A DNA stretch of 64,000 bases from Chryseobacterium fluminis (GTDB lineage: Bacteria; Bacteroidota; Bacteroidia; Flavobacteriales; Weeksellaceae). Made by a program: the position numbers and the translations under genes. Location of the stretch: assembly GCF_026314945.1 (NCBI RefSeq), contig NZ_CP111121.1, positions 2,914,001-2,978,000 on the forward strand. The letters are read 5' to 3'. The first letter of the stretch is position 1. Each line of letters opens with the position of its first letter. The notes under the pieces are model-generated. The model was not told where the DNA came from. It saw only the letters and a program-made list of their open reading frames with translations, and ran no database searches. Shown one piece after another: positions 5,894 through 16,242 of the stretch.

Positions 5894-7096
5894 TTAGTTG
5901 ATTACTTCTATCTGGTTTTTTAATAAATCCTCGAATTCATCTCTTTTTCTGATTAAATGCGCTTTTCCGTCTAAGAACAGAACTTCCGCCGGTTTCAGTC
6001 TTGAATTAAAGTTCGAACTCATTTCAAAACCATAGGCTCCCGCGTTGTGGAAAGCTAAAATATCTCCTTCTCTTACTTCATTAAGCTTTCTGTCCCACGC
6101 AAAAGTATCTGTTTCACAAATATTTCCGACCACGGTATAGATTCTTTCCGCTCCTTTTGGATTGGATAGATTTTCTATATTGTGATAAGAATCATAGAAC
6201 ATCGGACGGATCAGGTGATTAAAGCCTGAATTCACACCTACGAAAACGGTTGCGGTTGTCTGCTTGATCACATTGGCTTTTACCAATAAATATCCGCTTT
6301 TTCCTACTAAGAATTTCCCCGGCTCGAACCACAATTCGAATTTTTTTCCGGTAGATTTTGAAAATTCGGAAATCACTTTTTCCACTTTTTTTCCTAATGT
6401 TTTCACATCGGTTTCCTCTTCACTGTCCTGATAAGGAATTTTAAAACCACTGCCCATGTCAAGATATTTCAGATTCGGAAAATGTTCTGACAGTTCCAGC
6501 ATAATATCTAAAGCCTGAAGAAAAACATCCGGATCTTTAATCTCGCTTCCTGTATGCATATGAAGCCCTTCAACATTTAAATTGGTAGACTTCATCACTC
6601 TTTCGATATGACGGACCTGATGGATCGAAATACCGAACTTACTGTCGATATGTCCTGTTGAAATTTTATAGTTGCCCCCTGCAAAAATATGCGGATTAAT
6701 TCTTACTAGAATGGGATACGTATTTCCGTATTTGTTTCCGAACTGCTCAAGAATAGAAATATTATCAATATTGATATGCACCCCGAATGTCATTGCTTCT
6801 TCGATTTCAGCCAAGTCGACACAGTTGGGAGTAAATAGTATTTTTTCTTTCGAAAATCCGGCTTTCAGGCCCAGTTTGACCTCATTAATTGATACACAAT
6901 CCAAAGAAGCACCCAAGTTCTTGACATACTTAAGGATGTTAATGTTTGTCAGTGCCTTAGCAGCATAGAAGAATCTTGTGTGTTTTAAAAAAGAAGATGT
7001 AAGTTTTTCGTATTGCGTTTTAATAGATTCAGCGTCGTAAACATACACCGGGGTGCCAAATTCATTGGCAATCTTTAATAATTCTTTTGAATTCAT
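5894..7096 (-). CDS. lysA: Diaminopimelate decarboxylase
   Basis: PLP enzyme of fold III that decarboxylates meso-diaminopimelate to L-lysine, the last step of the DAP pathway. The 400 residues carry FYAAKAL with the PLP lysine near 47, HMHTGSE near 180, the glycine-rich DMGSGFKIPY, EPGKFLVG near 268, and GNICETDTF with the active-site Cys donated across the dimer. Preceded by a leader region with a Lys-rich peptide and alternative hairpins (7113-7246), which suggests control by lysine supply. Monocistronic, with its own terminator. Confidence 0.95.
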   Translation of the reverse strand: MNSKELLKIANEFGTPVYVYDAESIKTQYEKLTSSFLKHTRFFYAAKALTNINILKYVKNLGASLDCVSINEVKLGLKAGFSKEKILFTPNCVDLAEIEEAMTFGVHINIDNISILEQFGNKYGNTYPILVRINPHIFAGGNYKISTGHIDSKFGISIHQVRHIERVMKSTNLNVEGLHMHTGSEIKDPDVFLQALDIMLELSEHFPNLKYLDMGSGFKIPYQDSEEETDVKTLGKKVEKVISEFSKSTGKKFELWFEPGKFLVGKSGYLLVKANVIKQTTATVFVGVNSGFNHLIRPMFYDSYHNIENLSNPKGAERIYTVVGNICETDTFAWDRKLNEVREGDILAFHNAGAYGFEMSSNFNSRLKPAEVLFLDGKAHLIRKRDEFEDLLKNQIEVIN

Positions 7097-7112
7097 AATT
7101 TTATTTTGGCAT

Positions 7113-7176
7113 AAAAAGGGCAGATTCTTCGAAAAGAGTCTGCCACAATAATTATTTTATGCAAGGCAACTCTTTT
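7113..7176 (-). promoter_or_regulatory. Candidate lysA attenuator: antiterminator and terminator hairpins
   Basis: Three arms can be read on the minus strand. Arm A (7165-7176) is AAAAGAGTTGCC, arm B (7132-7144) is GGCAGACTCTTTT, arm C (7119-7130) is GAAGAATCTGCC. B and C form an 11-position stem with one C-A mismatch and a TTCG loop, followed by CTTTTT: an intrinsic terminator ending about 17 bases before the lysA ATG. A and B form a 12-bp alternative stem with one bulged G, which would exclude it. The stop codon of the leader ORF overlaps arm A, so a ribosome finishing the peptide would cover A and favour termination. The pairing is seen; the regulation is inferred. Confidence 0.72.
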
Positions 7177-7246
7177 ACATATTCCAAACCTTAGAAAACT
7201 TTACAGCTCCCTTTTTTCCGGTTTTATTTTGTTTAAAATTTTGCAT
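7175..7246 (-). CDS. Candidate lysA leader peptide (23 residues, six lysines)
   Basis: Short ORF from ATG to TAA between the lysA promoter and the hairpins. Lysines are at positions 5, 8, 11, 12, 16 and 19, i.e. 26 percent of residues, including one Lys-Lys pair. It starts roughly 10 bases after the expected transcription start and ends inside arm A of the attenuator. Lys enrichment next to a lysine biosynthetic gene is the hallmark of a ribosome-mediated attenuation leader. Note that AAA is common by chance in AT-rich DNA, so the Lys content alone is weak; its placement relative to the hairpins is the stronger argument. Confidence 0.6.
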   Translation of the reverse strand: MQNFKQNKTGKKGAVKFSKVWNM

Positions 7247-7264
7247 TGCTTCGTTTTATTTTTG

Positions 7265-7272
7265 CAAAAATA
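7265..7272 (-). promoter_or_regulatory. lysA leader promoter, -7 element
   Basis: TATTTTTG on the minus strand fits the Bacteroidota -7 consensus TAnnTTTG. Transcription would start near 7257, giving a leader of about 160 bases before lysA. No clear TTTG is seen at -33. Confidence 0.5.
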
Positions 7273-7404
7273 CTAATTCTTTTTTATTTCCTGAAAATTG
7301 ATTTGCGAAGTGTTTCTTTTTAAGGAGATTATCGAGATCTGAAATTTGTACTTCAGCAACAATATCAATTTCATATTAAGATCGGAACTGCAGTCGATAT
7401 TGCA

Positions 7405-8628
7405 TTATTTCGGTAACGGCAGGGTTTCGAAATCACCCCGAAGTAAGGCCAGCTGTAAGTCATTATTTAAATCCGAAGACTGAAACAGAAGATCTATTTT
7501 TAATTTAGAAAGCTTGCTGAGTGTCTGAATCTGCGTAAACAGTTCATAAAAACCATACGAACAGACCTTCCCGTTTTCGATTATTAAAAATAATTTTTCG
7601 CCCAGCTTTCTTCCCTGTCCAAGCCAAAGTTCATTCCTTCTTTTAAAATCTATCCGGTTTTTAAAAATATTCAGATCATTATATTCTTCAATATCATTGA
7701 TAAACTGAACAGCTTTTGAGCCCTGTGTAAAAGACCTGAATTTAAGAATCGGTTTTTCCGCTTTATTCAGGGTGTTCTTTTCAACAATGTATCTGTTGTT
7801 TCTGAAATACAATCCGAAAGGCAGAATGTCCCTCTTTCTGATATTTTTAGAGTTTAGAATCAGCTTGGCAATGATATCGGTACCCGTAAGTTCAAAATTG
7901 ATCTGTTCTGTCCCATTCTGAATCGATTCCCATTTTTTGGATTTTGAGTTAAAAACCTTTTTAGAAAACTTATTAATATCCTGTACATGATCTGAAAAAA
8001 TAATTTTCCCTGCATCATTCTGAAAATAAACGAAACCTTTCTCGTTTGGCAAATCCTGCGTTAACTGTTTGATTTTATTTATATAGGATTTAGCATTGGT
8101 TTCCTCATGCTGCTTCTGAATAATCTCGTTTTCAGTATCTTTTGACACCAGGAGCTTAAACAGTTCCAATGTGGCCCGGGCATCGCCCTCCGCCCGGTGA
8201 TGATTCGTCAGTGGAATTCCGAGTGACTTTACCAGTTTTCCGAGTGAATAACTTACCTCATCAGGAATCAATTTTTTAGCTAGAGGGATCGTATCCAGCG
8301 TATTGATTGTGAATTCATATCCAAGTCTTTGGAAAGACTGGCGGAGCATTCTGTAATCAAAGTCAATATTATGACCTACCAATGTTGTGTTTTGGGTAAT
8401 TTCCACTACCCTTTTGGCAATTTCGTGAAATTTAGGAGCGGTCTTGACCATTTTAGGCGTAATACTGGTCAGTTTCTGGACAAATGGTGTAATATCACTT
8501 TCGGGATTCACCAATGAGATGAACTGATCGACAATTTTTTGTCCATCGTACCGGTAAATGGCAATATCTATAATGCATTCTTTTCTGTAACCTGCACCAT
8601 TACTTTCTATATCAATTATTGAATACAT
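7405..8628 (-). CDS. DnaQ-family 3'-5' exonuclease with degenerate GIY-YIG-like C-terminal half
   Basis: 407 residues. The first 165 form a DEDDh exonuclease domain: D6 and E8 in IDIESNG, LVGHNIDFDYRML near 85-97, and HHRAEGDARAT near 143-153 supplying the terminal His and Asp. The second half begins LPNEKGFVYFQNDAGKIIF, which resembles the entry of a UvrC/Cho GIY-YIG nuclease domain in the common epsilon-GIY-YIG fusion, but the second YIG tyrosine reads FSD. The nuclease half is therefore probably inactive. Likely a repair-linked exonuclease rather than the replicative proofreading subunit. No operon partner is evident. Confidence 0.82.
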   Translation of the reverse strand: MYSIIDIESNGAGYRKECIIDIAIYRYDGQKIVDQFISLVNPESDITPFVQKLTSITPKMVKTAPKFHEIAKRVVEITQNTTLVGHNIDFDYRMLRQSFQRLGYEFTINTLDTIPLAKKLIPDEVSYSLGKLVKSLGIPLTNHHRAEGDARATLELFKLLVSKDTENEIIQKQHEETNAKSYINKIKQLTQDLPNEKGFVYFQNDAGKIIFSDHVQDINKFSKKVFNSKSKKWESIQNGTEQINFELTGTDIIAKLILNSKNIRKRDILPFGLYFRNNRYIVEKNTLNKAEKPILKFRSFTQGSKAVQFINDIEEYNDLNIFKNRIDFKRRNELWLGQGRKLGEKLFLIIENGKVCSYGFYELFTQIQTLSKLSKLKIDLLFQSSDLNNDLQLALLRGDFETLPLPK

Positions 8629-15729: not shown

Positions 15730-15803
15730 TCCTCCTTAGCTCAGTTGGTTAGAGCATCTGACTGTTAATCAGAGGGTCGCTGGTTCGAGCCCAGCAGGAG
15801 GAG
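15730..15803 (+). tRNA. tRNA-Asn (GTT), copy 1
   Basis: 74 bases folding as a full cloverleaf: acceptor TCCTCCT with AGGAGGA, D arm GCTC/GAGC, anticodon stem TCTGA/TCAGA with loop CTGTTAA (anticodon GTT), T arm GCTGG/CCAGC with TTCGAGC loop. CCA is not encoded. Followed by a short hairpin (GACTTACA..TGTAGGTC) and T run at 15811-15836 that should terminate it. Confidence 0.97.
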
Positions 15804-16168: not shown

Positions 16169-16242
16169 TCCTCCTTAGCTCAGTTGGTTAGAGCATCTGA
16201 CTGTTAATCAGAGGGTCGCTGGTTCGAGCCCAGCAGGAGGAG
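16169..16242 (+). tRNA. tRNA-Asn (GTT), copy 2; insertion site of the element
   Basis: 74 bases identical to copy 1, but here CCA follows the discriminator base. Its 3' end from base 58 onward forms the left copy of a 55-bp direct repeat that recurs at 21323-21377, marking integration of a mobile element at this gene. The gene itself is intact. Confidence 0.97.

Follow-up and report, generated by a model that had tools for sequence, protein, structure and literature searches.

A probable lysine-codon attenuator upstream of lysA in Chryseobacterium fluminis and related Weeksellaceae

The region upstream of lysA

The window analysed here is a 64,000 nt stretch of the Chryseobacterium fluminis genome. 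On its minus strand it carries a diaminopimelate decarboxylase gene (lysA), preceded by a short ORF and several short sequences with alternative pairing partners. Features are listed in the order in which they would be transcribed, with window coordinates, and with the kind of evidence in brackets:

7265–7272, minus strand: box TATTTTTG, 26 nt 5′ of the leader ATG (sequence); this is a TAnnTTTG-like box, which we take to be the Bacteroidota-type −7 motif
7241–7249, minus strand: start-region strand of helix S, GCAATGCAA, containing the leader ATG (predicted fold; duplex energies)
7175–7246, minus strand: leader ORF of 23 codons, DNA ATGCAAAATTTTAAACAAAATAAAACCGGAAAAAAGGGAGCTGTAAAGTTTTCTAAGGTTTGGAATATGTAA, peptide MQNFKQNKTGKKGAVKFSKVWNM and stop (sequence; conserved Lys and Gly codons)
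7220–7224, minus strand: 5′ strand, AAACC, of an outer helix around hairpin P, in type I leaders only (predicted fold; pairable in 39/39 aligned type I leaders)
7193–7212, minus strand: hairpin P within the ORF, AGGGAGCT GTAA AGTTTTCT (RNAalifold, five of its pairs, 66 leaders)
7186–7190, minus strand: 3′ strand, GGTTT, of the outer helix around P (predicted fold; type I alignment)
7165–7176, minus strand: arm A, AAAAGAGTTGCC, the antiterminator 5′ strand, sharing two bases with the stop codon (sequence; pairing conservation)
7161–7169, minus strand: second strand of helix S, TTGCCTTGC, overlapping arm A (predicted fold; duplex energies)
7132–7144, minus strand: arm B, GGCAGACTCTTTT, common to antiterminator and terminator (pairing conservation)
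7119–7129, minus strand: arm C, AAGAATCTGCC, the terminator 3′ strand (B:C pairing conservation)
7113–7117, minus strand: terminator T run (sequence; at least five T in 66/66 aligned leaders)
5894–7096, minus strand: lysA, diaminopimelate decarboxylase, 400 aa, the gene proposed to be controlled (TIGR01048, 386.6 bits, cut-off 297.9)

In the window sequence, A and B can form 12 pairs with one bulged G, and B and C can form a stem of 11 positions, one of them a C.A mismatch, capped by a TTCG loop. A sequence-only reading of this DNA had described the same order of parts (promoter, 23-codon ORF, A, B, C, T run, lysA) and the same two pairings, with 12 bp and one bulge for the first and 11 positions, one mismatch, and a TTCG loop for the second. 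Every one of these details is borne out by the sequence. The description was nevertheless incomplete: hairpin P, inside the ORF, and the type I helix between the start region and arm A had been missed. Among 2000 dinucleotide shuffles of the 79-nt region 7175–7097, none yielded a terminator hairpin with T run together with an arm able to compete with it over 10 or more pairs. The predicted fold of 7250–7097 has a z-score of −2.2, with 6 of 200 shuffles folding equally well.

No Rfam family matches the leader at gathering score, and the matches up to E 10 within 7050–7300 are far below it. For the lysine riboswitch in particular there is no match at gathering score in the window, nor up to E 10 in 7050–7300; the T-box family is likewise absent from both sets of matches. 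Elsewhere in the window, two tRNA genes (15730–15803 and 16169–16242), 365 bases apart, have identical Rfam scores, and are perhaps a recent duplication.

Distribution among relatives

Matches to lysA were sought in two overlapping sets of 59 and 197 genomes, and found in 51 and 181 of them. The upstream regions examined number 173, of which 172 are from the window's family (with family matches G004, G028, and G080 left out) and one is from another family. A leader ORF was defined as having 18–33 codons, at least four Lys, and the motif GKK or GSKK, and as ending 60–105 nt before lysA. By this definition there is a leader ORF in 105 of the 173 regions: 53 of 73 in the window's own genus (g1), 22 of 23 in g28, 23 of 36 in g45, 2 of 7 in g30, both of those in g26 and in g43, and the only one in g46. 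The remaining g28 region, truncated by a contig end, has A, B, and C. None was found in 28 regions from 13 other genera of the family, or in the single region from another family. The predicted peptides are of two types. Type I (g1, g28, and one of g26) reads K(T/I)GKKG(A/T)V(K/R)FSKVWN, with small variations; the other leaders (type II) mostly contain ...SKGKKFFSK....

An alignment (A1) was made of 66 representatives more than five edits apart, 40 of type I and 26 of type II. These were selected for an ORF with GKK or GSKK, so conservation of the ORF and of this motif is partly by construction. A degenerate DNA pattern for the ORF proved uninformative, with 28 matches in the window's own genome and 59 in a reversed control, and a covariance model (R1), built from A1 with helices P and B:C, was used instead; since A1 was chosen by ORF, the model is not wholly independent of it. 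In the window's own genome the model matches the lysA leader at 7.7e-25, and the next match (0.072) is at the end of another gene. In a search of the family, 225 of 320 genomes have a match at E of 0.1 or less, weak ones included. In a sample of 296 genomes from the order, all 28 matches listed below 1e-6 are from the window's family and directly before lysA (compared by eye). The best match outside the family, among the matches listed, is at 6.5e-4, and nine weak ones outside it range from 6.5e-4 to 0.009; no leader was found outside the family at significant score in these 296 genomes.

Eight of nine weak model matches were read as the ends or insides of unrelated genes and rejected. The other (L219) is a true member, from an eighth genus (g33): the match holds a Lys-rich ORF before lysA (MPTLSSKQIKISKKGIKPFSKDFVLS and stop), and coding is not scored by the model. 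Counting g33, eight genera of the window's family have this arrangement before lysA.

A second set of 80 lysA loci was assembled by name, 78 of them titled Chryseobacterium and two Weeksellaceae; many of these genomes are also in A1. The closest named relatives of the window's lysA belong to Chryseobacterium, the best of them with a protein 99% identical. A leader is present in 65 of the 80, all titled Chryseobacterium, and all 65 have an ORF of 18–33 codons with GKK. Among nine genomes that represent other families of the order, none was found to combine a Lys-rich ORF and a terminator 3′ of it before lysA. One of the nine (L345) has a 12-codon ORF with four Lys, MFNKFYKCLKFK, in this position, with no terminator seen behind it.

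Predicted competing RNA structures

The only pairs that RNAalifold predicts from A1 alone are five in P and six in B:C. Over the 66 leaders, 92.1% of the B:C cells are paired, 93.5% of the A:B cells, and 94.5% of the P cells; double-change cells number 46, 25, and 46, compared to 13.2, 5.8, and 17.7 in shuffles that ignore relatedness among the leaders. By the same shuffles, five pairs with a double change in B:C compare to 3.1 (35 of 500 shuffles reach five), two in A:B to 0.8 (reached by 81 of 500), and three in P to 2.9 (reached by 425 of 500). One pair of A:B (columns 106:154) shows a U-A/C-G exchange. For A:B and P, neither the number of pairs with a double change nor the pair types are above the shuffles in these 66 leaders, so their double changes may be few events widely inherited. 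When the partners are slid by one to three columns, pairing drops to 36–53% (B:C), 33–67% (A:B), and 31–71% (P), with P slid by one column still giving 31 and 36 double-change cells.

Parsimony on a FastTree of A1 itself gives 2 double compensations for B:C, 3 for A:B, and 3 for P; 30, 19, and 26 single pair-keeping changes; and 7, 21, and 17 changes to unpaired. With the partners slid by one or two columns, the pair-keeping changes number 6–13, 6–21, and 15–24. In A:B, then, 21 breaks stand against 22 pair-keeping events, with 15 of the breaks at three of its eight pairs, and a slide of +2 columns likewise yields 21 pair-keeping events. A check for covariation in A:B and B:C had been proposed with the sequence-only reading, and its outcome is clear for B:C and weaker for A:B: compensatory changes argue strongly for the predicted B:C helix, while A:B and P are supported by high pairing, and by independent compensation only weakly.

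The proposed comparison of folding energies was also run, and the two structures are balanced. Over the 66 leaders, the mean energies are −12.0 kcal/mol for full-arm A:B, which ranges from −16.6 to −7.3, and −12.1 kcal/mol for the B:C hairpin; the forced folds of the window come to −13.7 (A:B) and −14.0 (B:C). If only eight forced A:B pairs are counted, with A cut at the stop codon, B:C is the more stable in 63 of 66. A:B is formed first, so a kinetic choice between the two is possible. The C.A mismatch of B:C (C at 7138, A at 7125) is kept in 38 of 40 type I rows, probably because that C must pair with a G of arm A; the terminator may thus be held imperfect to preserve the switch.

Two further helices were examined in an alignment of 39 type I leaders, with row L070 left out. 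All five positions of the outer helix around P (AAACC:GGTTT) are pairable in all 39, as is the Thr or Ile codon at its edge, which is always ACT, ACC, or ATC. Helix S, between the start region and arm A, can form in all 39, at a mean of −8.6 kcal/mol, whereas ten control windows have means between −1.0 and −5.6. Its pairs hardly vary: there is one compensatory change (A-U to C-G, in L068), and covariation is not above shuffles (39/500). By analogy it would serve, in type I leaders, as the 1:2 helix of classical attenuators. In type II leaders, no helix S was seen by eye as a common element. Hairpin P lies within coding sequence, and part of the conservation of GKK..FS may be an RNA constraint arising from it.

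Lysine codons and their spacing

The leader ORF of the window has six Lys among 23 codons, as the sequence-only reading had it. The count is correct and uninformative: shuffled versions of the ORF have a mean of 5.3 Lys, and at least six are reached in 2069 of the 3311 shuffles that stay open, so the number is no evidence, the A-rich base composition yielding as many. What exceeds chance is the conserved positions of particular Lys codons, not their number. Conserved Lys codons had been proposed as a second check, and they are found at fixed places, with exchange between AAA and AAG. Lys occupies codon column 55 in 65 of 66 leaders (64 AAG, one AAA), and column 76 in equally many (54 AAG, 11 AAA); column 58 is Gly in all 66. 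Column 52 is Lys in all 40 type I leaders, and among the 26 of type II, Lys is found at column 61 in 25 and at column 64 in 26. The GKK part was a selection criterion for these 66 leaders; the Lys at column 76 was not. Within the ORF there are only two length changes, of 3 and 6 bases, and 3′ of the stop codon there are gaps of many different lengths, in this ORF-selected set.

These codons are also at a nearly constant distance from arm A. Counted from the first base of each codon, its core lies 18–22 nt past the column-76 Lys codon in 64 of 66 leaders and 3–5 nt past the stop codon in 63. A ribosome's footprint extends some 12 nt beyond its A site. With this spacing, stalling at the column-76 Lys would leave arm A free, and a ribosome at the stop codon would cover it.

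Lysine riboswitches are the familiar cis control of lysine genes in many bacteria, and the leader does have several conserved helices. It could conceivably be such a riboswitch, or another RNA bound by a ligand or protein, with the ORF incidental. There is no Rfam match at gathering score, however, and the Lys codons are kept through synonymous exchange; the contrast between two in-ORF length changes, of 3 and 6 bases, and many gap lengths after the stop likewise tells against it, with the reservation that the set was selected for an ORF. This explanation is scarcely credible.

Another possibility is −1 frameshifting, programmed or hunger-induced, at A AAA AAG before hairpin P, with an early stop freeing arm A. 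In the window, GGA AAA AAG does include a slippery heptamer with P directly 3′ (7193–7217), and the −1 frame meets a TAA before A; heptamer and −1 stop are found together in 24 of 40 type I leaders. On the other hand, the heptamer is lost in 10 of these 40 and the −1 stop in 8, and in type II A AAA AAG occurs in only 4 of 26, where those codons are inside the 5′ strand of P and not before it. Frameshifting is accordingly considered extremely improbable.

Ornithine-dependent nascent-chain arrest is known from the speF leader, and a GKK...FSK peptide might similarly halt its own ribosome in response to free lysine, or a related molecule, bound inside the exit tunnel, with the same switch among A, B, and C. 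Residues other than Lys are indeed kept: Gly at column 58 in 66/66 leaders, and a near-constant FSKVWN in the 40 of type I. There is also precedent in the available passages on Salmonella, where arginine and ornithine act on speF through an upstream leader ORF whose core residues are conserved (PMC6386406). The ends of the lysA peptides differ, however (KVWN and stop in type I; for example ANSVD or ENIGV in type II), and much of the GKK..FS conservation can be explained by hairpin P, and type I KVW by the outer helix. Were lysine itself the cause of the arrest, moreover, abundant lysine would switch lysA on, the opposite of what a biosynthetic gene needs. Arrest of this kind is unlikely, and stalling at Lys codons for want of charged Lys-tRNA is the preferred reading.

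Promoters and leaderless lysA genes

In the named set, a TAnnTTTG box lies 24–28 nt 5′ of the leader ATG in 64 of 65 Chryseobacterium leaders, and no −7 box lies between the leader ATG and lysA in any of the 65. A transcription start downstream of the ORF had been named with the sequence-only reading as one observation that would count against it; the placement of these boxes points instead to a start upstream. A scan of 6900–7500 for sigma-70 promoter and terminator consensus found no minus-strand site, missing both the −7 box and the terminator; its two promoter-like matches equal the shuffled mean (2.1).

Where the leader is absent, the box is elsewhere: in all 15 leaderless loci of the named set, there is a −7 box 42–52 nt before lysA itself, so that lysA is probably transcribed directly. 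The leader is evidently dispensable, being absent from 20 of 73 lysA loci of the window's own genus (L002, L010, and L019 are examples). Sister species have probably exchanged promoters at lysA.

In the last 120 bases before lysA at L083 (genus g41), a −7-like box, TATTTTTG, is followed by GGCAGGCTC...GATCCTGC, a hairpin resembling B:C. There is no Lys-rich ORF between box and gene at this locus, and the hairpin is perhaps a leader remnant, or an ordinary terminator.

The promoter arrangement also bears on whether the ORF might simply encode a useful small protein, followed by its own terminator, with lysA expressed by read-through or from another promoter. The peptide is both conserved and basic, as such a protein could be. 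Against this, the 28 order-sample matches listed below 1e-6 are all directly before lysA, and no other match in the window's own genome falls below 0.07; in almost every leader, the terminator has a pairing partner in the arm that overlaps the stop codon; the region between leader and lysA lacks a −7 box in 65/65; and the two peptide types share little sequence. A small protein of independent use is very improbable.

Proposed mechanism

The element upstream of lysA is very probably a real lysine-codon attenuator: a ribosome-mediated transcription attenuator that, in all likelihood, switches lysA according to the supply of charged Lys-tRNA. The features expected of one are present, namely a short ORF that lies downstream of a promoter box and ahead of the gene, conservation in it of codons for lysine, the end product, an intrinsic terminator, an antiterminator that excludes it through shared arm B, and a spacing that suits both a stall and a stop position. 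The trp/his-like logic of the sequence-only reading, in which stalling allows A:B and expression of lysA and completion of the peptide allows B:C, gains support from conservation of the Lys codons, from covariation, and from this spacing. Translation, stalling, termination, and the response to lysine are proposed from the parts, their conservation, compensatory changes, spacing, and promoter position.

Judging from the conserved −7 box, transcription would start just 5′ of the leader ORF, with a ribosome trailing RNA polymerase through it. The probable role of hairpin P is to make the polymerase wait, or to set the timing of the ribosome. When Lys-tRNA is scarce, the ribosome would halt at one of the Lys codons, the last of these stalling points being the conserved codon some 20 nt before the core of A; arm A would then be free to pair with B once B is made, C would remain single, and lysA would be transcribed. 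When lysine is plentiful, the ribosome would reach the stop codon and cover A, B:C would form, and transcription would terminate at the T run. In an untranslated leader, the start region could pair with A (helix S, type I), leaving B to C.

It is tentatively suggested, with somewhat more doubt than confidence, that this is a distinct build of attenuator, in which a few position-locked Lys codons replace a run, an in-ORF hairpin is required for timing, and the whole has been repeatedly gained and lost within one genus by exchange with a lysA-adjacent promoter. If so, attenuated and unattenuated lysA genes in sister species would constitute a natural experiment. The material for testing includes 105 leader-bearing regions, leaderless sister species, and His and Thr leaders in the same genome. 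A covariance model from the lysA leaders could become an Rfam family. Classical attenuation requires a ribosome close behind the polymerase, and a proven case would therefore show close coupling of transcription and translation in these bacteria.

Other candidate leaders in the same genome

Two other genes in this genome have candidate leaders. Upstream of hisG (L342, about 1291–1467) there is a His-rich ORF, MKPNFLTVHHYHHHLC, whose stop codon overlaps an arm, TAGACGG; CCGTCT and then AGACGG with a T run follow, the pairing being judged by eye. This is a probable second attenuator. An aspartokinase gene (817-residue frame; L338, about 1299–1497) is preceded by a 35-codon leader, MNFLRNISDISTPKFSISEVSFVSIIITTTTTTTP and stop, ending in a run of seven Thr, and Pro, which is probably a Thr attenuator. 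Unlike these runs, the Lys codons of the lysA leader are scattered. In the 260 nt upstream of two dapA-like genes and a second aspartokinase gene in this genome, no Lys-rich short ORF was found.

Comparison with known systems

The nearest likeness is within the genome itself: the hisG leader has, like that of lysA, a leader ORF with its stop codon over an arm, competitor arms, and a T run. It differs in its run of His codons, no sequence likeness was noticed between the two, and its function is putative.

In the literature, available passages on Flavobacterium psychrophilum report strong indications that amino acid operons are controlled by upstream leader peptide attenuation, with 5′ elements named before pheA and hisG, among others (PMC9723704). 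The words "lysA" and "lysine" are absent from the main text of that paper. The mechanism as such is accordingly not new to the phylum, as far as these passages go; its use on lysA with Lys codons was not found in print, and it was for lysA that the sequence-only reading had taken it to be undescribed in the phylum. Leader-like small ORFs are also mentioned for Bacteroides in the passages available (PMC7366714). The published passages on SEP5 of Sinorhizobium meliloti describe a translated small ORF with six Thr and three Lys codons, a proposed leader peptide (PMC10117765): as here, a small ORF with Lys codons precedes an aspartate-pathway gene, but SEP5 has mainly Thr codons, belongs to another phylum and another gene, and has no RNA switch in those passages. 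In the passages on the Salmonella speF leader, a decarboxylase gene is likewise preceded by a leader ORF, and translation of that ORF is proposed to change how the mRNA folds; its codons are for Arg and its effector is ornithine, from which the enzyme makes putrescine (PMC6386406). No lysine-codon attenuator of lysA was found in the titles, opening lines of abstracts, and selected passages covered from the open PMC literature, subscription papers being outside the search.

Such an attenuator would add lysine to the amino acids under classical attenuation, and would give the Bacteroidota, for which little work on such control was found, a well-defined case. It shares with lysine riboswitches the cis control of a lysine gene, and differs from them in that the proposed sensor is an ORF and not an aptamer, with no Rfam match. 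With the trp and his attenuators of enteric bacteria it shares a leader ORF with codons for the end product, a stop codon over the 5′ arm of the antiterminator, competing strands, a T run, and, for type I leaders, a putative counterpart of the 1:2 helix, which would hold the antiterminator arm when the leader is untranslated. Unlike them, it has scattered Lys codons in place of a Trp or His run, a hairpin wholly inside the ORF, a −7 box of Bacteroidota type, and its place before lysA. As far as found in the literature searched, the logic is a known one, applied to a new amino acid and a new gene.
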